From: Entamoeba histolytica HM-1:IMSS
Taxonomy: Eukaryota > Evosea > Mastigamoebida > Endamoebidae
Direction of reading: 5' to 3'
NCBI RefSeq assembly: GCF_000208925.1
Contig: NW_001914949.1
Coordinates: forward strand, 1-56,067
DNA length: 56,067 bases
The first letter of the stretch is position 1. Each line of letters starts with the position of its first letter. The notes beneath the pieces are model-generated. The model made no database searches and was not told the origin of the DNA. It saw nothing but the letters and a program-made list of their open reading frames with translations. Of this stretch, positions 2,210 to 56,067 are shown one piece after another. Both the position numbers and the translations under genes were made by a program.

Positions 2210-2672
2210 TATTTTTTATTATCATATTTATTATCTTTTTTTTTATACCGTGAATATTATTTTTTGATTAATGTTCTGTGAATATTTTTTACGTTTATTC
2301 TTTTTAGGATTAAGAGCCAATACTTTTTTCTTCTTCAAAACAGATATATTTTTTGATTAAAGAATGAAAAAACATTACAAATGTTACTTTGAGAGAATAT
2401 TGAAAAATTATTGTATTATGAGAAAAAAAAAATAGGGTTTCTATTATTTGATTTATTTCTTAAACTTTTTTTATAAAAAATTCAAATATTTTTAGTAAGT
2501 ATTTTTGTATTATTTTTATTCAAAAACTTAAAAAAAATTCTTTTTTCTAGAAGTTTCCATAAGAAAAGAATTTTGAAAAATTTCTAGTAAAAAAAAAATA
2601 TTCTAAACTATAAAATAATAATAATACTTTTTTATAACTTCTAAAATTTTTTGTTTTTTTTTATAGAAACAA
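2210..2672. other. Gene-free spacer, promoter side of the Cys-rich protein
   Basis: A/T-rich DNA with long A and T runs between the LINE 3' end and the next start codon. I see no ORF, RNA gene or clear repeat. The promoter of the downstream gene should lie here. Confidence 0.6.
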
Positions 2673-4067
2673 ATGAAAAGAACATTAATCAATTGCATCT
2701 CATTTTTCTCTCTTATCTTTTTAGTTCAATCAACTACTTATGAAATATTTATTGAAAGTTGGTCTAGTAGTTCTAATGAAGAAAATGAAGAATGTTCAGA
2801 AGGAAAGTTATTTGATGAAAGAACAGAACAATGTTTGCCTTGTCCAAAAGGGTCTTATTTTGTGAACAACAAATGTCTTTTATGTGAAGAAGGAACATAT
2901 CAAAATATGGAAGGGCAATTATATTGTAAAGAATGTCCAGTTGGTAGTTATTCTTCAATGAAAGGAAGTGATAGATGTTATAATTGTTCTAAAGGAATGT
3001 ATCAAGATGAAAAAGGACAAAAAGAATGTAAAGAATGTTTTGAAGGGGAGTACCAAGACGAAGAAGGGACAATCCAATGTAAAGAATGTCCAGTTGGTAC
3101 ATATTCTCAGCTTCGAAGAAGTATTAAATGTGAATTATGTAGTGAAGGATATTACCAGAATGAAACAAGGTCAATGGAATGTAAAATATGTCCTATTGGA
3201 TCAATTTCAAATAGAGAAGGAAGTAAAGAATGTACATTATGTGAAAATGGAACATATGCTGAACGAGAAGGAATGAATGAGTGTGTTAAGTGTGGGAAAG
3301 GGTATTACTCAAATAAAGGAGATTCATTTTGTCATTTATGTCCAGTAGGAACATATTCAAATAAAGAAGGATCAGGGATTTGTGATTTATGTCCAGCTGG
3401 AACATATCAAGAATATGAAGGAGGACAAGAATGTAAAAAATGTTTTGCAGGAACATACCAAAATGAAACAGGTTCAACATATTGTAAAGAATGTGATGTT
3501 GGAACATATGCAGATTATGATGGAATAAGTAAATGTAAATATTGTTTATTAGGAACATATCAAGATTTAAAAGGTCAAAAAACATGTAAAAATTGTGGGG
3601 ATGGAATGTATCAAGATAGAATTGGAGCGAGTGCATGTTTAATATGTCCAATAGGAACATATTCAAAAGGAGAAAAAAATACATATTGTAAACAATGTGA
3701 TGGAGGGTATTATCAAAATGTTAGTGGACAAAGTTCATGTAAACAATGTGAACCAGGATATTATCAACCAATGAGTGGTCGAAGTTATTGTCTTTTTTGT
3801 GAAGATACATCTGATAAAAATCGAGTGTCATGTATTAAATGTCAACCTGGATATTCTATTAATAAAGATAAAACTACATGTGTATTATCAAAAACTAATA
3901 TAATACTTATTTTTAGTATTAGTTGTATAGTAATAGTGTTCTCTTTATTAATAATTATATTCATTATTTCTTATGTAATTTCATTAAAACGTGAGAAATT
4001 ATCAAAGAGAATTAAAAATAAACGAAAGACTGTAAACAAAGAATTACTAAAAGTGTATTTAAATTAA
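2673..4067 (+). CDS. Cys-rich repeat single-pass surface protein (GCC2/GCC3-like ectodomain)
   Basis: 464 residues. Residues 1-20 form a signal peptide. Residues about 40-400 are some 15 repeats of the pattern G-x-Y-x(4-5)-G-x(3)-C-x-x-C, typical of GCC2/GCC3 or ephrin-receptor-like Cys-rich modules. Residues about 410-437 are one strongly hydrophobic transmembrane helix, followed by a short basic tail of about 27 residues. The layout predicts a type I plasma- or endosomal-membrane protein with a rod-like disulfide-rich ectodomain. Entamoeba transmembrane kinases carry similar ectodomains, but no kinase domain follows here, so this may be a decoy, adhesion or co-receptor form; that is inference. 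The ligand cannot be read from sequence. The ATG chosen is the one that gives the signal peptide. Confidence 0.85.
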   Translation: MKRTLINCISFFSLIFLVQSTTYEIFIESWSSSSNEENEECSEGKLFDERTEQCLPCPKGSYFVNNKCLLCEEGTYQNMEGQLYCKECPVGSYSSMKGSDRCYNCSKGMYQDEKGQKECKECFEGEYQDEEGTIQCKECPVGTYSQLRRSIKCELCSEGYYQNETRSMECKICPIGSISNREGSKECTLCENGTYAEREGMNECVKCGKGYYSNKGDSFCHLCPVGTYSNKEGSGICDLCPAGTYQEYEGGQECKKCFAGTYQNETGSTYCKECDVGTYADYDGISKCKYCLLGTYQDLKGQKTCKNCGDGMYQDRIGASACLICPIGTYSKGEKNTYCKQCDGGYYQNVSGQSSCKQCEPGYYQPMSGRSYCLFCEDTSDKNRVSCIKCQPGYSINKDKTTCVLSKTNIILIFSISCIVIVFSLLIIIFIISYVISLKREKLSKRIKNKRKTVNKELLKVYLN

Positions 4068-5051
4068 GTTGATAAAGTTTGAAAAGATATTAATTCAAAA
4101 GAAATGAATAAATGAAAAACACACTTTTCAATAGTATGAAATAATAAAGAATAAAAGAATAGAGAATGAATAAACATTCTTAAAGTACAAGATGTAAATA
4201 TTCAAAGGTAAGCAAAAAAAAAAAATAATAGAAAATAAGTGTAATATCATTGAATTAACTACTTTTTAATATCAGTGTTAATTAATTTTTTTTTCATTGA
4301 GTTAATTTATCAAGTAATATTAAAAAATACATGTTATTGATTATTTTTTTTTATTAATTTCATAGTATTGTTTATTTAAAGAAAACATTTACCAACTTAT
4401 TTTTTTTTATAACTTCTAGTATATTTATTAATTTTTATAAAAATAATAGTATTATCTAACACTCATTAATTTTTTTTATTAAAGAGTTTTGTTAGCTGTC
4501 AGTTAGTTGAATCTTCAAAGTAATATATCTATCAAATTTCCTTTCAAAAAAGGAAAAATCTATTTCGTTTATTATTTTTATGTTTTTAACATTCTTAATT
4601 TTATAAAATTTCGTTAAATTAAAAAAAATAATAAAAACTTTTTTTATGTTTTAAATCAGTTAGAAATTTTATCGTTGTTATAAAAATATTTTTGCGAACG
4701 AAATCAAACGATTATTAATTATTTACATAAGAAAATAGTTTTTTTTTTAGCATTTTATTTATATCTATTAATTATTTACTTTACGAAATAAATAAAAAAA
4801 AACATATATAGAAAAATGTAGTTCAAATAAAATTGAAATGGTTTGTTATAGTGAAAATAATTATTAGTAGAAAACTAAGAAGAAACAACAAAATTTACTA
4901 AAATAAAAAGAAGAAAAGATTAAAAAAGGAAAAAATGAAGAATAATAAACAGAAATGATAAATAAGTTTTTATAATACAAAATGAATAAAAAAAAATTAA
5001 AAATTAAAAAAAAAACAACCCTTAAAATGAAAATTTAATAAAAATGTAATA
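4068..5051. other. Gene-free intergenic region
   Basis: About 1 kb of A/T-rich DNA with many poly-A and poly-T tracts. I find no coding frame above background, no tRNA-like fold and no copy of the repeats seen elsewhere in the window. Confidence 0.55.
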
Positions 5052-8786: not shown

Positions 8787-11039
8787 ATGACTGAAGAGAA
8801 TAATGCTGTTCCTATTGTTAATGAAGAAATAACCGAAGAAAAAAAATTGGAAACAATCCAAAATACTGATGAACAAATAATCGACGAGAAAAAGGATGAA
8901 CAAAAATCTGAAAACGCAACAGAAGAAAAAAAAGAAATTAACGAAGAAACTAAAACTTGTGAGAGTGATGAAAGTACAACAAAGACTGAAGAAGTAATAT
9001 CGAGTGAAAAGAAAGAGGAAGAAGAGAAAGAGGCAGAAGAGAAAGCAAGACAAGAAGCAGAGGAGAAAGCAAGACAAGAAGCAGAGGAGAAAGCAAGACA
9101 AGAAGCAGAGGAGAAAGCAAGACAAGAAGCAGAGGAGAAAGCAAGACAAGAAGCAGAGGAGAAAGCTAGACAAGAGGCAGAAGAGAAAGCTAGACAAGAA
9201 GCAGAAGAGAAAGCTAGACAAGAAGCAGAGGAGAAAGCAAGACAAGAAGCAGAGGAGAAAGCAAGACAAGAAGCAGAGGAGAAAGCAAGACAAGAAGCAG
9301 AGGAGAAAGCAAGACAAGAAGCAGAGGAGAAAGCAAGACAAGAAGCAGAGGAGAAAGCAAGACAAGAAGCAGAGGAGAAAGCAAGACAAGAAGCAGAGGA
9401 GAAAGCTAGACAAGAGGCAGAAGAGAAAGCTAGACAAGAAGCAGAAGAGAAAGCTAGACAAGAAGCAGAAGAGAAAGCAAGACAAGAAGCTGAAGAGAAA
9501 GCTAGACAAGAAGCAGAGGAGAAAGCAAGACAAGAAGCAGAGGAGAAAGCTAGACAAGAAGCAGAGGAAAAGGCTAGACAAGAAGCAGAAGAGAAAGCTA
9601 GACAAGAAGCAGAGGAGAAAGCTAGACAAGAGGCAGAAGAAAAGGCAAGACAAGAAGCAGAGGAAAAGGCTAGACAAGAAGCAGAAGAGAAAGCTAGACA
9701 AGAAGCAGAGGAGAAAGCTAGACAAGAGGCAGAAGAAAAGGCTAGACAAGAAGCAGAGGAAAAGGCTAGACAAGAAGCAGAAGAGAAAGCTAGACAAGAA
9801 GCAGAAGAGAAAGCTAGACAAGAAGCAGAGGAGAAAGCTAGACAAGAGGCAGAAGAGAAAGCTAGACAAGAGGCAGAAGAGAAAGCTAGACAAGAAGCAG
9901 AAGAGAAAGCTAGACAAGAAGCAGAAGAGAAAGCTAGACAAGAAGCAGAAGAGAAAGCTAGACAAGAAGCAGAAGAGAAAGCTAGACAAGAAGCAGAGGA
10001 AAAGGCTAGACAAGAAGCAGAAGAGAAAGCTAGACAAGAAGCAGAGGAGAAAGCTAGACAAGAGGCAGAAGAAAAGGCAAGACAAGAAGCTGAAGAGAAA
10101 GCTAGACAAGAAGCAGAGGAGAAAGCTAGACAAGAGGCAGAGGAGAAAGCTAGACAAGAAGCAGAAGAGAAAGCTAGACAAGAAGCAGAGGAAAAGGCTA
10201 GACAAGAAGCAGAAGAGAAAGCTAGACAAGAGGCAGAAGAAAAGGCTAGACAAGAAGCAGAGGAGAAAGCTAGATTAGAGGCAGAAGAGAAAGCTAGATT
10301 AGAGGCAGAAGAGAAAGCTAGATTAGAGGCAGAAGAGAAAGCAAAGAAAGAAGCTGAAGTTGCTATTACCACATCAGCTTCTAGTGTTCCTATTAAAGAA
10401 GAAAAAGCTGACACTGCAATTAATGTTGGAGAAAACTTGAATGAGCAAATGAAAATGAAACTTATTATGATTGGAGAGTCTTCAGTTGGAAAGACATGTT
10501 GTATGAATAGATTTGTAAGTGATCAATTTAGCGAAGTAACAAAGTCAACAGTTGGAGTAGGAATGGTTTCAAAAGAAATGGAAGTTAATGGAATCAAAGT
10601 TAAGCTTCAAATCTGGGATACTGCTGGACAAGAAAGATTTGCTACACTAAGCAGTAATTATTTCAGAAACGCCATGGGAGGAGTTATCATGTTTGATGTC
10701 AGCAATAGACAGTCCTTTGAAAACGTTTCCAATTGGATTGATGCATGTAATAAAATTGAAGAAAAAAGAGTTTTAGTGTTAGCTGGAAATAAAACTGATT
10801 TAGATGAACGTGTTATTACCAAAGAGGAAGGAGAGGCACGAGCCAAAGAATTTGGGTTGAAATATTTTGAAGTATCTGCTAAAACAGGGGTTGGAATAAA
10901 TGAGATGTTTGAGACATTAACAAAAGAAATTGTTGCTTTACCAAAAGCTGAGGCACAAAATAATAATGAAGAAGTTTCCATTAACTTAGCGTCAGTTGAC
11001 AAAGAAACCTCAAAGAAAGGTAAAGGAGGGTGTTGCTAA
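8787..11039 (+). CDS. Rab-like small GTPase with giant N-terminal KARQEAEE repeat
   Basis: 750 residues. Residues 1-80 are acidic. Residues about 82-522 are about 55 copies of an 8-residue unit (KARQEAEE, with KARLEAEE at the end). Residues about 553-750 are a complete Rab-type G domain: P-loop GESSVGKTC (about 562-570), switch region with a conserved Thr, WDTAGQERF, the NKTD guanine box, the SAK box, and a C-terminal GGCC for double geranylgeranylation. The GTPase should cycle on vesicle membranes with a very long helical arm attached at its N terminus. Large Rabs with N-terminal coiled coils (Rab44, RASEF, CRACR2A) are known in animals, but they carry EF-hands and this does not. The repeat spacing of 8 suggests a single alpha-helix rather than a heptad coiled coil. 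No specific Rab subfamily is claimed. Confidence 0.88.
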   Translation: MTEENNAVPIVNEEITEEKKLETIQNTDEQIIDEKKDEQKSENATEEKKEINEETKTCESDESTTKTEEVISSEKKEEEEKEAEEKARQEAEEKARQEAEEKARQEAEEKARQEAEEKARQEAEEKARQEAEEKARQEAEEKARQEAEEKARQEAEEKARQEAEEKARQEAEEKARQEAEEKARQEAEEKARQEAEEKARQEAEEKARQEAEEKARQEAEEKARQEAEEKARQEAEEKARQEAEEKARQEAEEKARQEAEEKARQEAEEKARQEAEEKARQEAEEKARQEAEEKARQEAEEKARQEAEEKARQEAEEKARQEAEEKARQEAEEKARQEAEEKARQEAEEKARQEAEEKARQEAEEKARQEAEEKARQEAEEKARQEAEEKARQEAEEKARQEAEEKARQEAEEKARQEAEEKARQEAEEKARQEAEEKARQEAEEKARQEAEEKARQEAEEKARQEAEEKARQEAEEKARQEAEEKARQEAEEKARLEAEEKARLEAEEKARLEAEEKAKKEAEVAITTSASSVPIKEEKADTAINVGENLNEQMKMKLIMIGESSVGKTCCMNRFVSDQFSEVTKSTVGVGMVSKEMEVNGIKVKLQIWDTAGQERFATLSSNYFRNAMGGVIMFDVSNRQSFENVSNWIDACNKIEEKRVLVLAGNKTDLDERVITKEEGEARAKEFGLKYFEVSAKTGVGINEMFETLTKEIVALPKAEAQNNNEEVSINLASVDKETSKKGKGGCC
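9029..10350 (+). repeat. 24-bp coding minisatellite, about 55 units
   Basis: Tandem 24-bp units encode the KARQEAEE repeat. Synonymous variants (gcaaga or gctaga, gaggag or gaagag) occur in blocks, suggesting expansion by slippage or unequal exchange of multi-unit segments. The last three units change Gln to Leu. The array has no stop in several frames on either strand, so long overlapping open frames arise by chance. Confidence 0.95.
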
Positions 11040-22933: not shown

Positions 22934-23551
22934 TTAATAATTATATTTTGTTTTAAAATAACTTCCCCACTTAAATTCACATTCACTAAATTGATTTACA
23001 AAACTTTCTACTTTATTTTTATCTCTTTCATTAAATTTGTCAACAGTATCTTTTCTACCATACTTATTATATATAAAAAGCATTGTTTCTTCATTATGAG
23101 GATAAAGTTCTTCAGAGTATTTATATAATTGATACATAAAACCATTATTGGGGCTTATATTTTTTCTTCTTTGTTGAACATATTCATATGCCTCTTTTAA
23201 AGTCTTTCCTTTATACATTAAATAACCAATAACAATGGTAGCAGAACGAGAAACCCCCATTTCACAATGAACCAATACAGGTTTTAGTGCATTATCAATA
23301 AATTTAAAACATTCAGTAAAATAAGAGCTTATATTTTCACTTGAAGAATCTTCTAAAACAATCCACTTTTTTTCTTTAATAACACTAGGTAAATATACCT
23401 CATACCCAAGTATAGAAAGTACAGATTTAATTTGATATTCTTGAATAACTTCTTCATCTTCTGCTGCATAAACACTACCTAGAAACAACGTCCCTTTTTC
23501 AATAGTACTAATCATCCAATTTGATTCACCAACTTCTTGAATATCTGACAT
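22934..23551 (-). CDS. Dual-specificity protein phosphatase
   Basis: 205 residues. The active-site loop VHCEMGVSRSA gives the HCxxGxxR signature with nucleophile Cys96. It is followed by the conserved YLMYKGKTLKEAYEYVQQRR helix region and SPNNGFMYQL, as in classical atypical DUSPs. Upstream, FLGSVYAAEDEE matches the FLGS..A start of the DUSP fold. The general acid is probably the Asp in VLEDSS at about residue 68. It should dephosphorylate Tyr and Ser/Thr on protein substrates; the specific substrate is unknown. There is no docking domain or membrane anchor. The start codon lies only 59 nt from the 479-bp repeat (copy 1), so its promoter must be very short or lie within the repeat. Confidence 0.9.
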   Translation of the reverse strand: MSDIQEVGESNWMISTIEKGTLFLGSVYAAEDEEVIQEYQIKSVLSILGYEVYLPSVIKEKKWIVLEDSSSENISSYFTECFKFIDNALKPVLVHCEMGVSRSATIVIGYLMYKGKTLKEAYEYVQQRRKNISPNNGFMYQLYKYSEELYPHNEETMLFIYNKYGRKDTVDKFNERDKNKVESFVNQFSECEFKWGSYFKTKYNY

Positions 23552-23610
23552 TAATAAATTAAATTTTATATTTTATTTTTCAGATTTATCAAAGATGATA
23601 TGAAGAATGT

Positions 23611-31114: not shown

Positions 31115-32790
31115 TCTAAAAAAATTTTTTCTTTTGTTGATGAAGAAAATATTTGCTCTTTTCCCATAAAAAACTTAATAAATGTTGTTTCATGGATATT
31201 GAGTAAAACCTTTGTGTATTGTAAAGAAAAACAAACAAGATATAAAAATTCAATGTCATACAATAAAAGAATGAATGCCAATAGCATAACAACAATAGTA
31301 ATAAAGGTAAATGAAATAACAAGGAAAAAAGGATTAAAAGACGAAAGACACAAAGAAAAACAAATAAACAAAACAAGATAAATACAATAATAATAAAGAT
31401 TATACAAATAACAATAAATGATTAACAATAAATGATAAACAAGAAAGAACAAAAAGAATAACAAGTGAATGGAATAAAGGGGAGTATGAAGAAATACTTA
31501 AGAAGTAAGAAGATAAAAGAACAAGATTGTATTATATTCTTCAAGAAGTATATTCAATAAAAAAGAAAAAGATAAATGAAAAAATTAAAGAAGAAATTAA
31601 AAACAAAAGACAATGAAGAAAAAGACATTAAAATAATTGAAGAAGAAATTAAAAACAAAACCAATTAAAGAAATGAATGAAAGATGTAAAATTGCAAGAA
31701 TAATAAATAGCAAACAAGAGATGATAATCAGACAAGAAATACAACAGAAGGAAGAAATAGAATTTTAAATGAAGTGTTGTATTGTTTTGAAATTAATTGG
31801 TTAAATAAGAAATTATATAAGAAATTAAGATGGGAACAAATTGAAAGTATAATAAAAGCAATAAACATCAATGTCAATAATGAAAATGAATATATTAAAT
31901 ATATTAAAATGTCACATAAAATAAAAGAAAGCACTAAATAATACATTAAAGTAAAAGTAAATGATATAATAGAAGAGTAGAGTGTAATTCAATAATAAAA
32001 AACATCATAATAAAGAATAACTCTACAGAAATTGATGAAGAATACTTTAAAACTCTCATCAATAAAATTAAAGAAATGAAAATAGAAAAATGTACAAACA
32101 TTAATTACTACTTTCAAAGAAAAGAAACTTATGAATTAATAAATGAAATTAATAATAAATGGATAATGTCAGGAAGCAGAATGCATGAACTGCAAGATGA
32201 TATGAATATTTCAATTTATATGCACCTCTATCTCCAAAATAAAATAATAAGAGATAAAAATGATGAAATAAAAGAAATCCTAAAGAAAATCAATAGACTA
32301 GAAGATTTAGTCAAGGGAAGGAAATGGTACAGAATATAATGCAACATGAAATTAAAAGAATATGATGAAGAATGAATAAAAGTTAAATCACTATAAAGAA
32401 TAAAGTACCTAAAATATATGATGACAATGATAAAAGAAAGAATTAAATTTAATAAGGAAGAAAGGGTCAGAATCAATACAAATAAAATCATGTTTGATTC
32501 TAACAAGAAAATTAGAATAAGGAAAAAAGACCCAAAAAATGAAATATACCCAAATAACGATATTACTTTAGAATAAATGAAGAAAAGACATAGACATAAT
32601 GAAACAAAGAATAAAATAGAGAAATTAAGAGATGTCAAAATAATTCCAGTAGTAATTTCAATAAATTGAAAAGTAAATAAAGAAAGTATTAAATTAAATA
32701 AAGGAATAAAAAATGAGACTAACAACGTTAAATAAGTTAAAAGCCACATAACTAAAAACATGAAGGATGTCATTGGAATACTGATTCAAT
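31115..32790 (+). mobile_element. Internally deleted LINE family B (non-autonomous derivative)
   Basis: This element is collinear with the family-B LINE at 50.3-54.3 kb but lacks two internal blocks. The 5' part (the CKEKQTR-like basic frame at about 31214) matches 50.3-50.9 kb. It then jumps, at about 31709, to sequence matching 51745, dropping about 870 nt of the ORF1 coiled coil. It runs to about 32573, then jumps to sequence matching about 54060, dropping about 1.45 kb that holds the whole reverse transcriptase core and most of the endonuclease. The shared 3' end (AAACATGAAGGATGTCATTG) is kept. Both ends are retained, which suggests mobilisation in trans or deletion after insertion. The frames are broken. 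Confidence 0.8.
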
Positions 32791-35364: not shown

Positions 35365-37968
35365 TCACATTGCAGTTCCTCTTCCTCTTGGCATTCCTCT
35401 TGGTGCTCCTCTTGGACCACCCCTTGGCATACCTCTTGGTGCTGGACTTCCTCTTGGTGGCATTCCTTGTGGTGCTGTATGCATAACTGGTGTTTCTTGT
35501 TCTTCAGGTTCTGGTGCTTGTGTTGGTGGCATCATTCCTCCTCTTCCTCTTGACGGCATTCCTCGTGGTGCTGGTGCTCCTCGTGTTGGATGTGGTGTAG
35601 ATCCTCCTCTGTTTGCTCGTGCAGCAATAGCTGCCATTAATGGATTACCTCCTCCCATAGGCATTCCTCCTCCCATTCCACTTGGTGATGAATTGCTTGA
35701 CTTGCCAATAGCTGGTGCTGATTTATCTACTGTTGTAGTTTTCTTCAATTTAGTTCCTCGTTGAATTTGAGACAATAAATCACCTCTACCAGCAGATGAT
35801 GGTGGTGGTACATTAGCAGGACCAGGTGGTGGTAAGTTGTTTGATGGAGGAGGAGGTGGCATCATTCCTCCCATTGGTGCTCCTCTTGATGGCATACCTC
35901 GTGGTGTTGGACTTCCTCTTGATGGCATACCCCTTGGCATTCCTCGTGGTGCTGTATGCATAACTGGTGTTTCTTGTTCTTCAGGTTCTGGTGCTTGTGT
36001 TGGTGGCATCATTCCTCCTCTTCCTCTTGATGGCATTCCTCTAGGAGCTGGTGCACCTCTTGATGGTATACCTCCAGCTGGTGCACCTCTTGATGGCATT
36101 CCTCGTGGTGCTGGTGCTCCTCGTGTTGGATGTGGTGTAGATCCTCCTCTGTTTGCTCGTGCAGCAATAGCTGCCATTAATGGATTACCTCCTCCCATAG
36201 GCATTCCTCCTCCCATTCCACTTGATGATGAATTGCTTGACTTGCCAATAGCTGGTGCTGATTTATCTACTGTTGTAGTTTTCTTCAATTTAGTTCCTCG
36301 TTGAATTTGAGACAATAAATCACCTCTACCAGCAGATGATGGTGGTGGTACATTAGCAGGACCAGGTGGTGGTAGATTGTTTGATGGAGGAGGTGGTGGA
36401 CAATTACTTGGAGGAGGAGGTGGCATCATTCCTCCCATTGGTGCTCCTCTTGGACCACCCCTTGGCATACCTCGTGGTGCTGGACTTCCTCTTGATGGCA
36501 TACCCCTTGGCATTCCTCGTGGTGCTGTATGCATGACTGGTGTTTCTTGTTCTTCAGGTTCTGGTGCTTGTGTTGGTGGCATCATTCCTCCTCTTCCTCT
36601 TGGTGCTCCTCTTGGTGCTCCTCTTGGTGCTCCTCTTGGTGCTCCTCTTGGTGCTCCTCTTGGTGCTCCTCTTGGTGCTCCTCTTGGACCACCCCTTGGC
36701 ATACCTCTTGGTGCTGGACTTCCTCTTGGTGGCATTCCTTGTGGTGCTGTATGCATAACTGGTGTTTCTTGTTCTTCAGGTTCTGGTGCTTGTGTTGGTG
36801 GCATCATTCCTCCTCTTCCTCTTGATGGCATTCCTCGTGGTGCTGGTGCTCCTCGTGTTGGATGTGGTGTAGATCCTCCTCTGTTTGCTCGTGCAGCAAT
36901 AGCTGCCATTAATGGATTACCTCCTCCCATAGGCATTCCTCCTCCCATTCCACTTGATGATGAATTGCTTGACTTGCCAATAGCTGGTGCTGATTTATCT
37001 ACTGTTGTAGTTTTCTTCAATTTAGTTCCTCGTTGAATTTGAGACAATAAATCACCTCTACCAGCAGATGATGGTGGTGGTACATTAGCAGGACCAGGTG
37101 GTGGTAAGTTGTTTGATGGAGGAGGTGGTGGACAATTACTTGGAGGAGGAGGTGGCATCATTCCTCCCATTGGTGCTCCTCTTGGACCACCCCTTGGCAT
37201 ACCTCGTGGTGTTGGACTTCCTCTTGATGGCATACCCCTTGGCATTCCTCGTGGTGCTGTATGCATGACTGGTGTTTCTTGTTCTTCAGGTTCTGGTGCT
37301 TGTGTTGGTGGCATCATTCCTCCTCTTCCTCTTGGTGCTCCTCTTGGACCACCCCTTGGCATACCTCTTGGTGCTGGACTTCCTCTTGGTGGCATTCCTC
37401 GTGGTGCTGTATGCATAACTGGTGTTTCTTGTTCTTCAGGTTCTGGTGCTTGTGTTGGCGGCATCATTCCTCCTCTTCCTCTTGACGGCATTCCCCTTGG
37501 CGCTGGTGCACCTCTTGATGGCATTCCTCGTGGTGCTGGTGCACCTCTTGATGGCATTCCTCCCATTGAATGTTGTGCAGGTCCTCCTCGATTACCTCTT
37601 GCAGCAATAGCTGCCATCATAGGATTACCTCCTCCCATAGGCATTCCTCCTCCCATTCCACCTTTGGGTTGTTCTATCATTGGTTTTGATTTATCTATAG
37701 TTTCACATTTATTTAATTTCTTTCCTTTTTGAATTTGAGACAATAAATCACCTCTACCAGCAGATGAAGGTTTTGGCATGCTATGATTTGATGGTGGTGG
37801 TGGCATTCCAACAGGTGGTGGTGGTGCACCAGCAGGGGGAGGAGGGGGTGGTGGCATTCCTCCTGAAGGTGGTGGTGGTGCACCAGCAGGGGGAGGAGGG
37901 GGTGGTGCATTTGCTCCTTTGCGTTTAGAATCATCTTTATCCTTTTTCTTATGCCCAAATAATCCCAT
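35365..37968 (-). CDS. Proline-rich multi-WH2 actin regulator (WIP/verprolin-like)
   Basis: 867 residues. After a basic N terminus (MGLFGHKKKDKDDSKRKG) come polyproline runs (APPPPPPAGAPPPPSG) suited to profilin and SH3 binding. Four WH2-like motifs of the form RGDLLSQIQxGxKLxK occur near residues 72-86, 305, 550 and 730; such motifs bind monomeric actin. Between them lie long Arg/Gly/Pro/Met-rich segments and copies of PPTQAPEPEEQETPVM. The blocks are near-identical at DNA level over about 540-740 bp, showing recent internal duplication. WIP/verprolin proteins stabilise WASP and promote Arp2/3-driven actin assembly. No WASP-binding C terminus was recognised, so verprolin-like is a best fit, not proof. 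It probably acts at the cell cortex in motility or phagocytosis. Confidence 0.82.
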   Translation of the reverse strand: MGLFGHKKKDKDDSKRKGANAPPPPPPAGAPPPPSGGMPPPPPPPAGAPPPPVGMPPPPSNHSMPKPSSAGRGDLLSQIQKGKKLNKCETIDKSKPMIEQPKGGMGGGMPMGGGNPMMAAIAARGNRGGPAQHSMGGMPSRGAPAPRGMPSRGAPAPRGMPSRGRGGMMPPTQAPEPEEQETPVMHTAPRGMPPRGSPAPRGMPRGGPRGAPRGRGGMMPPTQAPEPEEQETPVMHTAPRGMPRGMPSRGSPTPRGMPRGGPRGAPMGGMMPPPPPSNCPPPPPSNNLPPPGPANVPPPSSAGRGDLLSQIQRGTKLKKTTTVDKSAPAIGKSSNSSSSGMGGGMPMGGGNPLMAAIAARANRGGSTPHPTRGAPAPRGMPSRGRGGMMPPTQAPEPEEQETPVMHTAPQGMPPRGSPAPRGMPRGGPRGAPRGAPRGAPRGAPRGAPRGAPRGAPRGRGGMMPPTQAPEPEEQETPVMHTAPRGMPRGMPSRGSPAPRGMPRGGPRGAPMGGMMPPPPPSNCPPPPPSNNLPPPGPANVPPPSSAGRGDLLSQIQRGTKLKKTTTVDKSAPAIGKSSNSSSSGMGGGMPMGGGNPLMAAIAARANRGGSTPHPTRGAPAPRGMPSRGAPAGGIPSRGAPAPRGMPSRGRGGMMPPTQAPEPEEQETPVMHTAPRGMPRGMPSRGSPTPRGMPSRGAPMGGMMPPPPPSNNLPPPGPANVPPPSSAGRGDLLSQIQRGTKLKKTTTVDKSAPAIGKSSNSSPSGMGGGMPMGGGNPLMAAIAARANRGGSTPHPTRGAPAPRGMPSRGRGGMMPPTQAPEPEEQETPVMHTAPQGMPPRGSPAPRGMPRGGPRGAPRGMPRGRGTAM
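35390..37480 (-). repeat. Internal tandem duplication within the WH2 gene
   Basis: Three successive blocks, with WH2 cores near 35760, 36300 and 37030, share long near-identical DNA. Shorter runs of GGTGCTCCTCTT (the Arg-Gly-Ala-Pro unit) are expanded up to eight times at about 36600-36690. Copy number is likely to vary between strains and may be miscounted in assemblies. Confidence 0.85.
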
Positions 37969-38526
37969 TGAATTAGAATAAACTTATTAAGTTCATCCAA
38001 GAATAAATTTCAAAAATAACAGTATTAATGAACTCAAAAATTAATTTTTTAGTTTTAATAACGTGATAATTTCTTCTTCTTTATGTAGAAATTTTCATAT
38101 TTATTATTTACAAATGACTTAATTACGATTAAGTTTTATCACAGTAGATTTTTTTTGGACTTAATTTATTTTAGTCATTTAGTTCAAAATTTTTCAGTAA
38201 TTTTTTATGAACCGATATTAGACTAACCGTTTTTCCTTTTAATAACTAATAAAACATGAATGAACAAATTTAATTGCACTACCAATGAAAGAAGGAACTT
38301 TAAATAAGAATATCAAAAAGACAAATTTTTTAATTAAGGTTATTAACTAACAGACTTGTTTATTATTATTTGATAAGAAGAATATAAAGAATATTTTTAT
38401 TAATATTCTTATGCAATAATAATTCTTCCAAAAAGAATAACAAAAGAAAAAACCCGCAATAAAAACCAGGAATTATTTAAAATCGGACTTTTTAAACCCT
38501 AAAATAAGTTATTTTGAAACAGTATA
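37969..38526. other. Divergent promoter region (WH2 gene - / GDPD gene +)
   Basis: On the plus side AAACCCTAAAATAAG at about 38496-38510 lies just before the GDPD ATG, and on the minus side a GAACTTAATAAG string lies before the WH2 gene ATG. No ORF was found. Confidence 0.5.
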
Positions 38527-43061: not shown

Positions 43062-46000
43062 TAGATTTTCTTCATATTGAGAAATGATTATTTCAGTTTC
43101 TTCAATATGCTCTATTGGTGTAATAGAGTTTATTTCTAACATACTCGCACTTGATTCTAATTCTAAATGTGCTGCCAGAATTGAATGTGTAAAACATTAA
43201 GTCTTTCATATTTTTTATAATAATTGTTCGTAGGATTTTGGCAAAGTCTAATTGTAATTTCAGTGATTTTATTCTTCTTGGTGACTCTTTATGAATTAAT
43301 CCATTTATTGATAATATAACAGGTATTATTTCAACATATATTATTTCTCTATTATTTCTTAATTTCTCTTGTAATTCTTTGTACTTATTTATTTTATGAA
43401 TGTAATTTAATTCTATATTCATATCTTGACATATAGCAACATCTATAATATATCCTTTCTTTTCTGTAATATTTTGATAATATATATTATGTCTTCTAGC
43501 ATGGAAAGAATTGTCACTAACCAATAAATCTTTATTGTAAGTTATAACCATTTCATCATTATTAATACATTTTGGAGGATTATTAAAATCAATTGAATCA
43601 AATTCATTAAAATGTGTAATTAATATCTGTTTAAATATTTGTTTACAAACATAATCATGTTTTGATATTTGATTCTTTTTCATTACAAGACATCCTAACA
43701 ATATATGACTAATAGATGCTATTGTGTTATGACAATGTTTACAATATTTTAAATCATCATTTTGTAGTATTTTTGATTTAATATTTCCTGTCATACTTAC
43801 TCCTTCTTGCATCTTTACTATTTGAAGAATGCATTTCTTTTTATGTTTAATGACCTCCATGTGGCTACTGTTAATTTCTTATCAATGAAAGTGCTATTTG
43901 CACATCTTATATATTCACCACATTTCTTTTCTTTCCATTCATTTAAGTATATATCATTACATTCATTAGTTACAAATTCAAATACTTTCTTTACATCATG
44001 TTTTCTTTCATTTAATTCTATTATATTCATTAATTCATTAAAATTAATCTTTTTACCAAATGCTTTCTTCATTCTTTTAATTATTCCATTTGGATTTTCT
44101 TTTATTGTTTCTATCGTTTCTCATATTTCTGTGTTTGATATTTGTATTTTAAATATATTCTTAATAATTTTTAAGCACATTCATCTCTTGCTGACATTAA
44201 TCCCAATTCATTTATTTTAATATATAATCTACTTTTTGGGAATATTTCTACTATATAATTGGAGGTGAATTAATGATTTTCTTATTTGTTTATCTATCTT
44301 CTCCAATTCTCCTAGTTTCCATGTGACAATACAAAATCCATATCTTAATTTGGAGATTATATCACTATTAATCTTTCTTATTGTATTGAGGCTGCTGTAC
44401 TTCATAGTATTTAATGATGATAGAATAGAAGATATATCATTTAATATTCTTGTACAGTATTTGTTGATGTTTACTTTATCTCATATTTCAATACTAAGAT
44501 ATTTATAATGATTATTATTAGTTACTCTTGGTAGTTCAGCTAATTCACCATTTATTTGACTATTAATATTAGTCATTATCCCACTCTTTTCTACATTAAT
44601 TTTTAATCCTATTGCATTAAATATTTCTTTAGTTAATTTGTGGGCTTTTTCCATTTCATCGAGGCTATTAGTCATTATCTTTAAATCGTCCATATACAAT
44701 ATGTGGTTTAACTTGACTTGTTTTTCTTCTCCATTCATTTTAATATTCAATTTGTTAATTTGTTTATCTAATTGTTTAGATAATATATCAATAGATAATA
44801 CAAATAAGAGTGGAGATAAACTGTCACCTTGTATTATTCATCTTTCTACATTAATCATACCTACACTTTCTTGATTATAATACAAATTAAGATATGTATT
44901 ATTTAATATATATAATATACTATTAATTACTACTAGTGGGATATTAAAATATATTAATCATTGTTTAATCCATTGGTGGTTAATACTATCATATGCTTTG
45001 GAGACGTCATAATATGTTTCTACCCACTTCCATTTATTATTTATTAATAATTGATTGATTATAATGTTATATAATAATCATTCTTTTGATGATATGTATA
45101 TTTCTTACATCCAATTTGATTTAATGAAAGTTGTTTTTCAATTTGATTTAACATCAACTGATTTTCTATTTTCATTTTTAATATTGATGTATATACTTTT
45201 AACAGACAATTTAAGCAAGTTATTGGTTTGTAATTCTGTGGGTCTAATTTATCTCCTTTCTTATATATTAATATTGTCCTTCCTTGAATAAAGTGAATAT
45301 GTATTTCATTATGATTATTTAACCATTCATTAAATAATTTTAATAAATATTTCATTGGTTGTTCTAAATATTTAATCCAAAATCATTGTATTTTATCAAC
45401 TCCCGGTGCCTTCCAGTTAGCAATAAATTTAATAGTACAATCTAGTTCATTTGGAGTGATTATAGCCATTCTATCATTAATTCTATTTTCAATTAATATT
45501 TCATATAAATTAATATTCAGGAAATCTATATTAGTGTTAGTTTCATAGATTCCTTTCCAGAAATTAATAGTGGAGATATTATCTGGATATTCATCTTCTT
45601 TAGGCTTATTTAGATGTTGTCTTTTTCCAATATTTCATCATTTTATATTTCAATCTTATTCTTTTCAAATTATTCTTTCTTGCTTCTATTTCTATTCTTT
45701 TCATCTTTCGGAGGTATTTATAATAGTTTATTTGTTCATTTGTTTTTATTTTAATATGATATATATCATTTTTCTTAATATATTATTCTTTTTAATTTCA
45801 TGTATTGTTTATTATGGAGTAAATCTCTTAATCTACATATTTTTGATTGTATTATTCTTTCTATACTTTTCTTTCAACTTCTTTCTTGTTTATTTTTATT
45901 AATTATGTTAATAGTGGAAGATACTGATTTAATATAATGATAATATTCATCTAATGTATTGATTAATATTTCATTTTTATTAATAATATTAATTATTTGA

Positions 46001-48329: not shown

Positions 48330-49610
48330 TTAATTTGAACAAAATGTATTATAATCAAAGTCTTTTGTAATTTTTCCATAGTACTTCACAAAATCCTCAA
48401 ATAAACAAATTTCTGATCCACAAGGAGGTAAAACTATAGCTTCTTGATTAAAATAAGTTCTTACATAATATTGTCCTTTTTTTGATTTTAGAAGAACAAA
48501 CATGAAATGGACACTATATGGACTAACCTTAGACATATTCCATTTTCTCTGATTCTTTTTTGCTTCATTTAATTTTACAGTTAAAGCAAATTGATCAATA
48601 TTAACTCCCATTAAAGTCATTAAGGGAGTAACAGTTTCTGCATGTGCAAATCTAAAATTACCAAGAATATTATTCTCCTGTTTTGTTAATTGAATATTTT
48701 TATCATTTACAACAGCTAATTTTAATCCATTAATAATAGAGTCCAAAAGAGGGATTGCAATTTTATAATTTAACTCACTAGAATTACCTTTTGTATAATA
48801 TGTTTCTAAGTCTTTGATATACTCCATTATATGTGCATCTCTAATATTAAAATACTTTAATAGTCCATCACTTTTATTAAATACAACATACTCATGTGCT
48901 CCAGCAGTGAAAGCAAGTTGTGTAAGACTTTTACTAGTACTTTCATCAATATCAGTCATTCCAATTGCTTTTATAAATCTATTTGCCGTTTCATTTAATT
49001 TCATTTGAGCATATTGGTTAGACTGTTTATGTGTTGAACTACTTTTTTCATATTCAACATATCTTCTACAATTTTTATGAAAGTACAACTGAGTGTCTTT
49101 GTCTTTAGGAACAACAGTAATATTTATTTTGTTATCAATAACCATTTGTTTTTTTTCAGGTTCATCATCATAAAACCCTTCTAACCAACTTATAGCACTA
49201 TCTTGAGTCCTCTTTTTAAAGGTAGCAGTAACGTTAATATTAAGTAAAGATTTCCCATAAAATAACTTTTTAAATTCACCCTTATAATATTTTCCCAAAC
49301 TAAATAATTCTTGTTTTCCTCTGTCACATAACTCTCCTTCCATTTCCATTGGAAATGGGTTTTTCCATGTAATTTTAGAATTTTCAGCAAATGTTTCAGC
49401 CATCATATTCATTGCATTTATGTCATTTGATGTTGGATATCGAGAGCCATGTCGCTGGACTAACTCTGCATGAACCACAGTGAAATGGTCCAGCGTTGGG
49501 TCTCTGATATCTTTGAGTAAGTAGGGTGTTCTAGTACTTAAACAATGGGTTATATCTTCGTTATAGCCACAACAGCCAAGGGCCATGTTCACTAGAAGAA
49601 CAGCCAGCAT
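48330..49610 (-). CDS. Secreted histidine acid phosphatase, MINPP/phytase-like
   Basis: 426 residues. A hydrophobic N terminus (1-12) with early Cys acts as signal peptide. The catalytic loop is QRHGSRYPTSND with nucleophile His54, and the proton-donor motif is FRFAHAETVTPLM with His323 and Glu325. HAE, rather than the HD of the prostatic acid phosphatases, points to the multiple-inositol-polyphosphate phosphatase branch. The product should strip phosphates from inositol polyphosphates or other phosphomonoesters in an acidic vacuole or outside the cell. Several Cys (CCGYNEDITHC, CGSEICLF, final CSN) are likely disulfides. There is no ER-retention tail at the end. It runs opposite to the family-B LINE that starts some 680 nt away. 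Confidence 0.85.
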   Translation of the reverse strand: MLAVLLVNMALGCCGYNEDITHCLSTRTPYLLKDIRDPTLDHFTVVHAELVQRHGSRYPTSNDINAMNMMAETFAENSKITWKNPFPMEMEGELCDRGKQELFSLGKYYKGEFKKLFYGKSLLNINVTATFKKRTQDSAISWLEGFYDDEPEKKQMVIDNKINITVVPKDKDTQLYFHKNCRRYVEYEKSSSTHKQSNQYAQMKLNETANRFIKAIGMTDIDESTSKSLTQLAFTAGAHEYVVFNKSDGLLKYFNIRDAHIMEYIKDLETYYTKGNSSELNYKIAIPLLDSIINGLKLAVVNDKNIQLTKQENNILGNFRFAHAETVTPLMTLMGVNIDQFALTVKLNEAKKNQRKWNMSKVSPYSVHFMFVLLKSKKGQYYVRTYFNQEAIVLPPCGSEICLFEDFVKYYGKITKDFDYNTFCSN

Positions 49611-50289
49611 GGATCTATTTAACTATTTTTCATCGTTTAAATAATAACGTTATGCTTTTTTTTTTAATAGTAACAATTTGATTTAATTTAATAACTTTTA
49701 AATAACTTTTTTTAGAAAATTATTTGTTGCTTTAAGTTTAACTTTTTGTAAAGTCTAAATAATTTTTAACGAAAAACAAAAATATTTTTTCTTTTCCTTG
49801 ACTTTTCATTAACAAAATAAAATTTTTTATAGAAAAACAAACGTATAAGAATTTAAGCTAGTTGTTGAGGTTGAAAAGTGGTTGACTTATTCAACACTTT
49901 TTTCTTTTTTTCTTTTTTCCCTTCATCACTTTCTTATCTACTATTTTCTTTGGAACTTTTATTTAAAACCTTTTTAGCTATAAGAGATAGGTTGCAAGAG
50001 TATTGTATCTCCACCTAATAAGAAGACAACTATTATAGCTGTATTTATAAAGTTTATATTCAATGTTCTAAGTTGTCCTAATCTTGATACTAATTTCAAG
50101 TTCAAACTTTCATTTCTAAATTAATTTAAAATTATTTATAATTTTGACGATAATTTTTTTTCTTCTTTTATCTATGGAATGTGATGAAGTTTCTTTCCTC
50201 AAATGAACGATAGTTGATTCAATAGGATTTACACACTCAGCCAGGGTGTGTGTAGAATGTTTTTGTTTGGTGTTTTCTTTTTTATATCT
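49611..50289. other. Promoter side of the phosphatase gene and LINE 5' flank
   Basis: A/T-rich, without a gene. A minus-strand open frame across 50116-50436 overlaps the LINE 5' end and has a similar counterpart at 31108-31464; I treat it as a shadow. Confidence 0.5.
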
Positions 50290-51761: not shown

Positions 51762-54271
51762 TAATCAGACAAGAAATACAAAAGAAAGAAATAGAATTTT
51801 AATTGAAGTGTTGTATTGTTTTGAAATTAATTGGTTAAATAAGAAATTATATAAGAAATTAAGATGGGAGCAAATAGAAAGTATAATAAAAGCAATAAAC
51901 ATCAATGTAAATAATGAAAATGAATATATTAAATATATTAAAATGTCACATAAAATAAAAGAAAATACTAAACAATACATTAAAGTGAAAGTAAATGATA
52001 TAATAGAAGAGTAGAGTGTAATTCAATAATAAAAACATCATATTAAAGAATAACTCTACTGAAATTGATGAAGAATACCTTAACACTCTCATCAATAAAA
52101 TAAAAGAAATGAAAATAGAAAAATGTACAAACATTAATTACTACTGGAAAAGAAAAGAAACTTATGAATTAATAAATGAAATTAATAATAAATGGATAAT
52201 GTCAGGAAGCAGAATGCATGAACTGCAAGATGATATGAAGAAGATTTCAATTTATATGCACCTCTATCTCCAAAATAAAATAATAAGAGATAAAAATGAT
52301 GAAATAAAAGAAATCCTAAAGAAAATCAATAGATTAGAAGATATAGTCAATGAAATTGTAGAGAATAAAATGCAACATGAAATTAAAAGAATATGATGAA
52401 GAAGGAATTAAAGTTAAAGCACTAGAAAGAATAAAGTACCTAAAATATATGATGACAATGATCAAAGAAAGAATTAAATTTAATAAGGAAGAAATAATCA
52501 GAATCAATACAAATAAAATCATGTTTTATTCTAACAAGAAAATTAGAATAAGGAAGAAAGACCCAAAAAATGAAATATACCCAAATAACGATATTACTTT
52601 AGAATATTGGAAATCGTTATATGAAACACAGGTGAAATTAAATAAAGAGAATTGGAAAATAAAACAAATCACCTCGTGGAATGAAAGATATTTCAATTAT
52701 AATAATGTCATAATAACAATAAATGAATTAAATTTAAGTATAATGAAAATAAATAACTGGAAAACACAATGAATAGACACTATATATGGGTATTATTGGA
52801 AAAGGATGTCATCATCATGAGAAGCCATTCTCAATATCTTTAATGAATGGTTGAACTTCCCTGAAAACATCAAATTAGACATGGTAAGTGGAAGAACTTT
52901 ATTAATCCACAAAGGAGGTGATATGAATAATGTCATTAATTATTATCATATCAGTTGTACAAATGTAATTATGAAAGTATTTACATCAATATTAAAAGAA
53001 AAGATTCACAGAAGACTTAACATGAATAATGAATCATTTAAAATTAGTAAAAATCAATTGGGATGTAAGTTACAATCTTTAGCTGCTAAAGAAGGAATAA
53101 TTAATAGTTATATGATGAAGCAGCAGAAAGAAGAAAAATACCCAAAATATGTGGAGTCATATTATGACATTAAGAAAGCATATGACACTGTCAACCACGA
53201 ATGAGTCATTGAATCATTAAAATATTTTAATTATGAGTTTGTTATCATTGACATAATTGAAAGTATGATGACTAGATGGAAGATATTCATCGGTTATAAA
53301 TTTAATGAATATCTATGATGTATTAAATTAAATAGATGAATTTTACAAGGTGATTCCTTATCCCCTCTACTCTTCATCATCCAGATGAATGTGATTTCTC
53401 AAATCATCGAAGAGAAATTCCCAAAATCAAATCACACATTATATATGGATGATTTGAGAATAATAACAGAAAGTAGTGAAGAAATGTGAATAATCCACAA
53501 AGAAATTAATGACAAATACATCAAAAAATGGAAGTGTCATCAAATAGTGGATATTTTAGAAGATGTTTTGAATCAAAATGAGTAGATAAAACTACTATAG
53601 TGAAAGCATGGAAGTCAATCAATATTAAGAAAAATGCATTTCTACAATTAACTAAAATGCAAGATGGAGCAATATTTTGTGGGTATAAGAAAGCAAAAAT
53701 AATGAAAAATGAAAGATTAAAATACTCAACACTTTGTAAAGACAAGATAGCTACAGTACAACACATTCTACTATCTTGTATTTATCATAATAAATCACAA
53801 ATTGAAAAACATGACAATATTGGCATTATAATATTGATTAATAAGAAAATATACAAGAAATAAACAATATAAAAAAACCTCCATATGAAACAATGTTCCA
53901 ATATAAAGACATCACAATGATATTTAACAAACAAATAATGCATAAAAGTGAATGACAATATCACAAAATACCATATATATGTATTAGATAAAAAGAATAA
54001 AACTAGTCTATTATTTGATATGACTAATATTGTGGCTGATCACAATATTAGTTGAGTGTAAATGAAGAAAAGAAATAAGTATAAAGAATTAAAGAATATT
54101 CTAATGAAAATAGAAAAGTTAAAAGATGTCAAAATAATTCCAGTAGTAGTCTCAATAAATGGATTAGTGAATAAAGAAAGTATTAGATTAATTAAAGAAT
54201 TAAAAATTGAGATTAACGTCATTAAAGAAATTAAAAACCATTGTAATACAAAACATGAAGGATGTCATTGA
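51715..54271 (+). pseudogene. LINE family B ORF2 (RT and endonuclease) interrupted mainly by TGA
   Basis: The start overlaps the ORF1 end by 47 nt in another frame. After a TAG at 52012-52014 and a frame change, the N-terminal part continues at 52109. From 52377 the frame runs through EYWKSLYETQVKLN and the RT core. In-frame TGA occur at 52770-52772, 52818-52820, 53202-53204, 53316-53318, 53337-53339 and 53487-53489; the first other stop is TAG at 53583-53585, after a frame change. The RT active site YMDD is intact. The last part (54062-54271) matches the end of the family-A endonuclease (IIPVxxSINGLxxKES). By the standard code it is inactive. Confidence 0.75.
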
Positions 54272-54275
54272 ATAC

Positions 54276-56067
54276 TGTTTTTATCATAACAAAACAGGCA
54301 ACGAAAAAAAGCAAATAATTGAAAAAGAAGAGAATGAATGATATAAAAGAATAAAAAGAAAGTAAGAAGTTTGATATGATGAAGAAAGAATAAAAGTAGA
54401 AAGGAGAGAATATAAAAAGAAAGAAGATAAAGTGTAATAAAACAAAAGAGATGATAAAAGAAGAAAAGAAAGAAAAAAAATAAAGGATGCGAATTTTATT
54501 GAAACAAATAAAAAAAGCGCAAAATTTAATGATGCGAAAATTAATAATGCGAAATATTTAGCAACATTTTTATTGATGCGAAATATTTTGAAATAAAAAT
54601 AAATCATCATTTGATATTATTATTATATTTGATAATAAATTATATTATATATTAAATACATCATATTTCTTTATTATTTATCTTTCTTTTCTTTTTATTA
54701 TTTCATGTATTAAATTATTATTCATTCATTTATTATTTATATTTCATTTATTAAATAAAATGAAAATGAAATTGTAAAATAATAATCAATTAATTAAATA
54801 TTCATGAATAATAATTTATTAATATTTAATAATTGAAATAACAAATAATAAAGTAACAATAATGATATATTCAATATATTCTTTATTTGATTTGTTCAAT
54901 ATTAGATTATTCTATTTCATTATCATTTCATTGTCTTCATTATTTTATTTCATTTATTATTTCATATTCATTTATTATTTTTTAAAATCAAATAAACAAT
55001 AATATTGATATTCATTCATCATATTCATTTAATATAATAAACATACACAACATTTCAGAATAAAGAATGAATAATTAAGAATGAAAATATTGATTTATTC
55101 AATATTTTGTTCAACATAAATCAATAAAACATATATTTTGATAATATACAAATGAATGAAATAATAAAGAAATATACAATACTCAAGAATTAATAAAAAA
55201 GAAATAAAAAGAATAAATGAATATAAAAGTGATAAATAATAGAAGAAAGAAATAGAAAAACAAAGAAAAACAAATAATATAAAAAGAATAAAAATATATA
55301 AAAAGAATAAAAATAAAGTAGAAGAAGAATATAAAAATAATAAATCACAAAGATGTAATAAAAGAAGAAATAAAAAGTGTATTTTTATTGTAAAAATTAG
55401 AAATATTCAATAAAAAGTATCTAATTTAATGATGTAAAATGATTAACAATATTTTATTAATGAAAAATATTTTACTCTTTTTTATGTTTATTATTTATAT
55501 GTATAATTTCATCATGATATTTATTATATAATCAATCATATGTGTTATGTTATTATAACATATAATAAGTGATAAAATATAAATGAAAATGATATGAATA
55601 TATAACATAGATAGAATATAAAACAAAAGAATAATAAGAATAAATGATAAATAAAAGGAGAAATGATAATCAATGATATAATAATAAATAACAAGTATAA
55701 AATATAAAAGATAAAAGATAAAACAAAAGAGAATAAATATAAAATGAAAATAGATATAAATGATAATAATATAAAAATGATAAGGATGAATATTCAAATA
55801 ATAAAATACAACTAAATAGAAAAGAATAACAATAAGAAAATCTAAAGAATATAAACATAAAAAACATAAAATAAGAATAATATAATAATATATAGATAAT
55901 AAGAAGAATACAATGATATAAATAATATAAACAGAGAAATATATATAAAAATACGATAGATAAATAACATATAAATAAAATAATAAAAATAATAAAAATA
56001 ATTATGATTCATCAAATAATCTATTTCATTAATATTTCATACAAAATGAATATAAATGATTATAAAA
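54276..56067. other. Gene-free, very A/T-rich tail with a diverged duplicated segment
   Basis: No gene can be supported. Two segments (about 54420-54600 and 55350-55490) look like diverged copies of each other: both go from Lys-codon-like AAGAAG runs to TTTAATGATG, then AATATT(T) and TTATTAATG or TTATTGATG. The first is studded with TGCGAAA motifs (about five), the only CpG-bearing strings nearby. Simple A/T words (AATAAT, ATTCATT) dominate the rest. It could be a subtelomeric or contig-end repeat; I cannot tell. Confidence 0.5.

Follow-up and report, generated by a model that had tools for sequence, protein, structure and literature searches.

Excess TGA stop codons in LINE copies of Entamoeba histolytica as a probable by-product of a motif-specific mutation process

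A LINE reverse transcriptase (RT) frame that is interrupted repeatedly by TGA raises the question whether UGA was tolerated in the source elements, by readthrough or recoding, or whether mutation in such repeats is of a kind that generates TGA. An earlier note offered both explanations for a frame of Entamoeba histolytica HM-1:IMSS. The frame lies in a stretch of 56,067 nucleotides (the window; contig C303, NW_001914949.1), to which coordinates refer unless another locus is named; the contig is one of 392 in the 16.95-Mb genome. In the 402 codons of the frame 52377–53582 there are exactly six stops, i.e., TGA at 52770, 52818, 53202, 53316, 53337 and 53487, all of them in frame. When the stops are read through, the frame matches the RVT_1 domain at 1e-18, with the YxDD and QGDS boxes of this class in the forms YMDD and QGDSLSP. 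The lack of TAA and TAG that had drawn attention to the frame is confirmed for the interval 52377–53582 and breaks down in the rest of the copy, where TAA is present at 53861, 53870, 53936, 54059 and 54287. The whole aligned ORF2 of this copy has 10 TGA and 5 TAA. The absence of TAA and TAG is a property of the interval chosen, while the TGA bias itself is general.

The interrupted frame is part of a family-B copy, of which the ORF2 remains extend over 52193–54313 on the forward strand (tblastn to the ORF2 of locus L010, 88% and 66% identity; RVT_1 at 1e-18). The RT part (52362–53513) is joined at about 53513 to a C-terminal part (53513–54313), with the deletion of about 226 reference codons. 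Compared with other family-B copies, the six TGA, which all lie on the forward strand, fall at four Gly sites (GGA commonest at three), one Arg site and one Trp site. The Gly sites are 52770–52772 (reference codon 201; GGA commonest, 11 copies), 53316–53318 (codon 383; GGT in 24 copies, GGA in 16, TGA in 16), 53337–53339 (codon 390, preceding the QGDSLSP box; GGA in 48 copies, TGA in 10, with nine separate gains on the tree) and 53487–53489 (codon 440; GGA in 48, TGA in 12). The GG route was not used at the Arg site 52818–52820 (codon 217; AGA in 24 copies), nor at the Trp site 53202–53204 (codon 345; TGG in 54 copies), where the change was G→A. A further family-B fragment, at 32160–32624 on the forward strand, contains three TAA and one TGA.

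Family A is represented by two copies in the window. The first, at 3–2035 on the forward strand, was recovered as the tblastn pieces 3–419, 422–763, 1359–1790 and 1760–2035; the second, at 43237–45779 on the reverse strand, likewise consists of tblastn pieces and includes an RVT_1 place (C303:44487–45041). TGA occurs in the second copy at 45078, 44958 and 44838 within the RT part and at 45383 upstream. The TGA that the two copies had been said to share was found in both, at 1124 and at 44121. The count of six TGA against one TAA in each copy was not reproduced, as the homology-limited alignments, which cover parts only, give two TGA plus one TAA in one copy and four TGA in the other. A TGA at the Gly before QGDSLSP had been ascribed to both families; it is indeed present in family B (53337) and in the family-A copy at 43–46 kb (44838), while the copy at 1–2.2 kb reads Gly. 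LINEs of this type have C-terminal CCHC and restriction-like endonuclease motifs. In the family-A frame a CxxC...H...C arrangement can be seen by eye, and a Pfam search of 43102–43878 gave zero matches. With an RT ORF2 near 950 amino acids (945 codons in L010 versus 956 amino acids in Ed_LINE2, the latter from excerpts of PMC2657916) and with most copies interrupted, the elements resemble the non-LTR elements of the EhLINE/EdLINE type. The 945-codon frame of L010 is open throughout, at 1779–4613 of that locus; the same excerpts know LINEs with one complete ORF and none with both.

RT places were collected by an RVT_1 search of the 17-Mb Entamoeba genome. The class is dispersed, with 150 scored RT places out of 309 candidates. 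Stops counted in the RT-matching stretches of these 150 places amount to 163 TGA, 30 TAG and 60 TAA (253 in total); 33 places are stop-free, TGA is the sole type of stop in 61, and 14 contain other stops but not TGA. The TGA bias is thus not confined to the window copies, and a share of 163/253 is far above chance. Host gene families served as rough controls, since introns register as stops in such genes: HSP70 (48 places) gave 7 TGA, 4 TAG and 20 TAA and, among the matches listed, LRR_5 (of 173) gave 1, 4 and 3 and Ras (of 164) gave 7, 16 and 16. The TGA share in the LINE RT stretches differs from that of the three host families (15/78 among the matches listed; Fisher p 1e-12) and from that of HSP70 alone (p 1e-5).

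The codon-by-codon alignment of LINE copies that had been proposed in the earlier note, with stops tallied by source codon, was carried out, and it traces the TGA excess mainly to GGA. Copies were fetched from 100 of the 150 RT places, plus the window, and each was aligned with one open reference copy per family (A, B and C). Sixty-eight sources matched family B and 34 family A; removal of rows covering less than 60% of the RT stretch left 62 B and 35 A rows, window copies included. Two highly divergent B rows were excluded from the age fits (60 used), and family C, with six sources, was left out of the motif analysis. Family B contains 170 TGA, 93 TAA and 31 TAG in 29,402 codons, family A 54, 19 and 4 in 8,087 codons, and family C 5, 1 and 1 in 1,261 codons. 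Judged by the commonest codon of the site, GGA→TGA accounts for 81 of the 294 stops in B and 42 of the 77 in A, while GAA→TAA accounts for 8 and 6, respectively. On the trees, 55 of 89 stop gains in B and 24 of 46 in A are GGA→TGA. A reading of UGA as Trp was rejected as the main cause, since TGA stands mostly at Gly sites (GGA, GGT or GGG for 102 of 170 in B; GGA for 42 of 54 in A), with TGG at only nine in B and none in A.

The dominant change in the aligned RT copies is (A/T)GGA→(A/T)TGA, or WGGA→WTGA, at 240/1023 (23.5%) in B (n=62) and 102/450 (22.7%) in A (n=35). In B and A, respectively, G→T amounts to 1.6% (98/5980) and 1.3% (24/1804) before A, 2.1% and 1.6% before T, and 5.5% and 3.9% before C. 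For NGGG, the value is 5% in B (21/417) and 19% in A (20/105), the latter being close to the WGGA rate of that family. The base 3′ of GG matters, GGA being hot and GGT cold, and a plain GG→TG motif was therefore discarded as too broad. G→T before G is elevated at all three codon positions, and so is the complementary C→A after C. Expressed per site and branch length on the trees, G→T in NGG has a rate of 1.17 (B) and 1.93 (A), compared with 0.12 and 0.17 in NGA, 1.30 and 1.38 for the complementary C→A in CCN, and 0.52 and 0.57 for all G→A. As parsimony at a hotspot overstates precision, tree-free counts were made as well. Disjoint pairs at GGA show G↔T versus G↔A in ratios of 92:32 (B) and 50:6 (A). 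The change is found in frame at 77/413, in the other sense frames at 72/304 and antisense at 91/306 in family B, and at 39/138 (28%), 18/140 (13%) and 45/172 (26%) in family A. Summed over both families, the stop-making in-frame changes (116/551) do not differ from those in other frames and antisense (226/922; p 0.14); taken separately, the in-frame rate is lower than the rest in B (p 0.003) and higher in A (39/138 versus 63/312, p 0.07). Rates of individual sites at the motif span 0 to 45%, and hot sites more often have T two bases past GGA. The four-base motif is therefore incomplete and the true motif longer.

Identical sites are changed again and again. Among GGA/TCC sites, 19 of 21 in B and 10 of 15 in A have a variant in at least three copies, compared with 21/170 and 9/117 for G not followed by G, and seven B sites each gained TGA 5 to 11 times on the tree. 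Counted over disjoint nearest pairs, shared GGA variants number 54 in B (expected 36.5) and 17 in A (expected 18.9), and shared transitions 205 in B (expected 110) and 98 in A (expected 66). GGA states are inherited less than transitions, though B retains some inheritance. Old polymorphism that was shared and reshuffled by recombination was rejected, since close copies share GGA variants less than transitions.

In family B, the load of changed GGA also varies with divergence. In 13 long B copies it rises from 1.9% to 23% (rho 0.63, p 0.02), a trend carried by the two most diverged copies: these have 39/183 versus 91/1160 in the other 11 (p 2e-7), and without them rho falls to 0.38 (p 0.25, n=11). 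The two least diverged long copies carry 2/80 and 0/27 (L011) and 4/80 and 0/27 (L014); the third least diverged, L020, carries 12/105. Load and age are correlated in the 60 B RT copies (rho 0.36, p 0.004), and no age trend was seen in the 35 A RT copies. The numbers of GG→TG per copy are near Poisson (mean 5.5 and variance 7.5 in B; 4.1 and 3.1 in A), with p values for heterogeneity of the GGA load of 0.11 (60 B copies) and 0.76 (35 A copies). When the 13 long B copies are divided into six bins, WGGA changes exceed other G→T by a factor of 7.5 to 12.5 in four of them; the excess is absent from the bins 0–800 (2/99) and 3300–4000 (5/160) of the L010 element, where the motif is present. Across four segments and all available copies, GG→TG frequencies are 0.044, 0.111, 0.073 and 0.122, compared with 0.008, 0.015, 0.015 and 0.026 for other G→T; in the ORF1 segment CC→CA does not rise (1/99). 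The relation to age, the limited sharing and the near-Poisson counts fit a process that continually hits inserted copies, with a component at birth of the copy being possible.

Outside the LINEs, the effect was looked for in several kinds of repeated DNA. Six non-LINE duplicate pairs without a common locus, two of them from one repeat group, were picked by hand from 25 alignments of tRNA-bearing loci. They have no clear excess at GG (7/142 versus 49/1425 elsewhere, p 0.34) or GGA (3/54 versus 40/1387 elsewhere, p 0.2), and LINEs differ from them at GGA with p 3e-9 and 1e-8 (4e-10 to 1e-8 over the GG and GGA comparisons). The GG excess is likewise absent from all 25 alignments together (11 per 344 unchanged GG versus 82 per 2161 GA) and the GGA excess from 27 other AT-rich repeat alignments (3/27 versus 177/1022), and intergenic DNA is not depleted of GG (ratio 0.99–1.05). 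A repeat of about 13% GC (13–14% in three copies), reached via the 3′ side of L010, served as a SINE test with three GG sites; it has WGGA changes at 5/63 versus other G→T at 59/1669 (p 0.08), which is below LINE family B (p 0.003). The control with DNA transposons comprises one MULE place only, and no relatives were found on viral contigs. From few controls (six duplicate pairs and three host gene families), the bias looks LINE-associated. Some of these repeats have features of their own. At 55084–56003 the window contains part of a very AT-rich dispersed repeat that is 84% alike to L016 4850–5801; copies of a repeat of about 13% GC terminate in a conserved tail of some 115 bases, which recurs on the 3′ side of the L010 family-B LINE, and the repeat may be SINE-like or ERE-like. 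At the loci L046–L050, stretches of about 100 bases match the tRNA model and ARAGORN calls no tRNA there; the loci are 91–99% alike over about 1–3 kb, with weaker side pieces at 77–80%.

In our judgment, the TGA excess probably arises in the main because LINE DNA undergoes a sequence-specific mutation process, with TGA as its by-product. The motif, its independence of frame and strand and its recurrence at the same sites are direct observations in the alignments; the higher load in older family-B copies and the absence from the non-LINE duplicates tested are supported as well. T replaces the first G of (A/T)GGA, which yields (A/T)TGA, and A likewise replaces the last C of TCC(A/T). The process operates irrespective of strand and frame and re-hits identical sites in different copies; it does not act on GAA, AAA and CAA, the sources of TAA. 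TGA is produced because GGA, the usual Gly codon of these A/T-rich elements, is itself the hot motif. Several observations count against this explanation: the uneven distribution along the element, the missing age trend of family A and its in-frame rate above the other sense frames, the variable site rates, and the stop excess and TAA shortfall on terminal branches described below. In addition, a first predictor of the stop ratios, which used GG-context rates from all non-stop changes, gave TGA shares of 38% (B) and 29% (A) versus 64% and 71% observed for single-step changes, and over-predicted TAA and TAG; we think it failed because such rates blend selected and unselected history. The earlier note had expected neutral decay to favor TAA; this is correct under a context-free spectrum and fails here because of the motif. 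Its second proposal, a TGA-making mutation process in the repeats, is supported and can now be specified as (A/T)GGA→(A/T)TGA, occurring on either strand and in every frame.

The process may act on double-stranded LINE DNA after insertion. The lesion could be an oxidized guanine paired with A, which LINE chromatin would either form more often or repair less well. Such guanine damage at the DNA level, or its deficient repair, is tentatively preferred to RT error as the cause. From excerpts of PMC12795821 and PMC3784513, guanine oxidation is expected to turn the 5′ G of GG into T, and this 8-oxoG-like pattern is found here on both strands. According to excerpts of PMC3784513, GG and a purine on the 3′ side lower the ionization potential of a triplet, which is lowest for GGG. 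The preference for A after GG fits oxidation only partly, and the cold GGG of family B does not fit; moreover, the present effect differs from general 8-oxoG mutagenesis in that it appears LINE-associated. Methylation of LINE DNA, which is discussed for Entamoeba in excerpts of PMC1779778, could be the reason why LINEs differ from other DNA.

The main alternative raised by the stops themselves is that UGA was decoded in the source LINEs, e.g., as Gly or Trp, with TAA and TAG being removed and TGA free to build up. Besides the TGA share of 163/253, several ratios would agree with this. A branch-based predictor of the stop ratios was built from missense rates, and splitting by the base after GG closed most, not all, of the TGA gap. 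On terminal branches, the missense-based prediction is exceeded by TGA (53 observed versus 18.5 in B) and undershot by TAA (9 versus 21.6 in B, 9 versus 15.5 in A), and stop versus missense changes in the GGA context stand at 2.27 versus 1.27 (B) and 2.85 versus 1.64 (A). The in-frame rate of family A also exceeds that of its other sense frames. Against recoding, the change is overall as frequent where no stop is made and on the opposite strand, which leaves tolerance of UGA unnecessary as an explanation. TAG, moreover, is undepleted (6 versus 8.2 predicted in B, 3 versus 2.5 in A), and the ORF2 frame of the B copy L010 is stop-free, as are 33 of the 150 RT places. In family B, the ratio of stop-making to non-stop GGA changes is 9:30 on inner and 46:44 on terminal branches (p 0.004), a deficit on inner branches that is expected if UGA is still harmful; family A has no inner deficit (9:10 inner, 15:23 terminal, p 0.58). 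The search for a UGA-reading tRNA, as suggested earlier, gave no TCA anticodon among 9 clear anticodons at 22 tRNA places, and no tRNA-Sec match; this counts little, as most tRNA genes are seemingly missing from the assembly or the search. Decoding of UGA has a very low probability and is unlikely as the main cause. The TAA deficit probably stems for the most part from the contrast of selected with unselected branch history, and some UGA tolerance may be left as a residual component, given the in-frame hits of family A and TAA that is scarcer than predicted.

Among the mutational alternatives, copying error by the LINE RT, inserting A opposite the 5′ G of template WGGA during first- and second-strand synthesis, is not likely, yet deserves some weight. 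R2-type elements have an RT that synthesizes both strands. Strand symmetry would be possible if the LINE RT did likewise, and the LINE-associated signature, the near-Poisson counts per copy, the age-independent load of family A and the non-zero intercept (0.10) of the binomial fit for B all agree with error at birth. The least diverged long B copies, L011 and L014, carry little load although they were presumably reverse transcribed, and the two most diverged carry most, which speaks against an error confined to birth; this is not decisive, given the load already present in L020, next in divergence. An error of 20% per site would also leave scarcely any intact offspring. Among the papers listed on non-LTR RT fidelity and on RT error spectra, none pointed to the WGGA motif. 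It is rather improbable that an oxidation-type bias, e.g., from poor 8-oxoG repair, acts genome-wide and is merely revealed by LINEs as unconstrained DNA. Such a bias would leave the mark expected of guanine oxidation, T for the 5′ G of GG (excerpts of PMC12795821 and PMC3784513), and the profile search finds two HhH-GPD places and no match to the OGG1 N-terminal domain; for E. histolytica, excerpts of PMC6052137 list both MutY and Nth, and the word OGG is absent from that text. Yet the non-LINE duplicates lack a clear excess, the host families are rich in TAA and TAG rather than TGA, GGG is not the hottest context, and intergenic GG is undepleted, though a recent onset would scarcely show there. 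An artifact of assembly or base calling at modified LINE DNA, uncorrected since repeats are hard to polish, is the kind of explanation to which the methylation discussed in PMC1779778 (in part), the lesser sharing of GGA variants between close copies and the missing age trend of family A would lend themselves. It is highly improbable in view of the higher load of diverged B copies, the sister copies that share states with high local support (L083/L114, 0.999; L122/L051, 1.0) and the other duplicated DNA without a clear effect.

The preferred reading, a mutation process in LINE DNA, invites comparison with known systems. RIP and APOBEC-type hypermutation produce motif-dependent C→T/G→A transitions in bursts, which make stops and are concentrated in mobile DNA. 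A motif-dependent, stop-making mutation concentrated in mobile DNA is seen here as well, but the change is a transversion (G→T/C→A), affects both strands and has near-Poisson numbers per copy. Transitions of the RIP or APOBEC type as the dominant change at the motif are contradicted by the excess of G↔T over G↔A at GGA, and bursts by the near-Poisson counts and the heterogeneity tests. The process might still be a LINE-directed inactivation by transversion, turning the main Gly codon into a stop through WGGA→WTGA on both strands; such a RIP-like defense of novel chemistry, for which LINE methylation or small RNAs might serve as guides, is a speculative and quite unlikely reading. Reassignment or readthrough of UGA is known from TGA within otherwise conserved frames. 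The LINEs differ in that, taken overall, out-of-frame and antisense sites show the change just as often. In excerpts of PMC2657916 and PMC2996970 on Entamoeba LINEs, stop codons are mentioned, and the TGA bias and the motif are not. If it holds, the novelty is a G→T process that is specific to a motif, affects both strands, marks LINE copies and generates TGA. What looked like a possible anomaly of the genetic code becomes a measurable mutation signature and, if confirmed, the LINE DNA of a gut protist would be a site of unusual damage, repair or targeted mutation. It would also be a warning that a one-sided excess of one stop codon in mobile elements can reflect motif-specific mutation instead of recoding.

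The window contains several other features besides the LINEs. At 9028–10359, a 24-base unit, repeated in tandem about 55 times, lies in one open frame of 772 amino acids that ends in a Ras/Rab GTPase domain. A large proline/glycine-rich open frame with long internal repeats is found at 35365–37983; the segment 36001–38000 has 49% GC, compared with 26% for the window. Among the host proteins, the one encoded at 48330–49619 is 96% identical to an Entamoeba nuttalli protein, and the one at 22934–23569 has its best match, at 52%, in E. marina.
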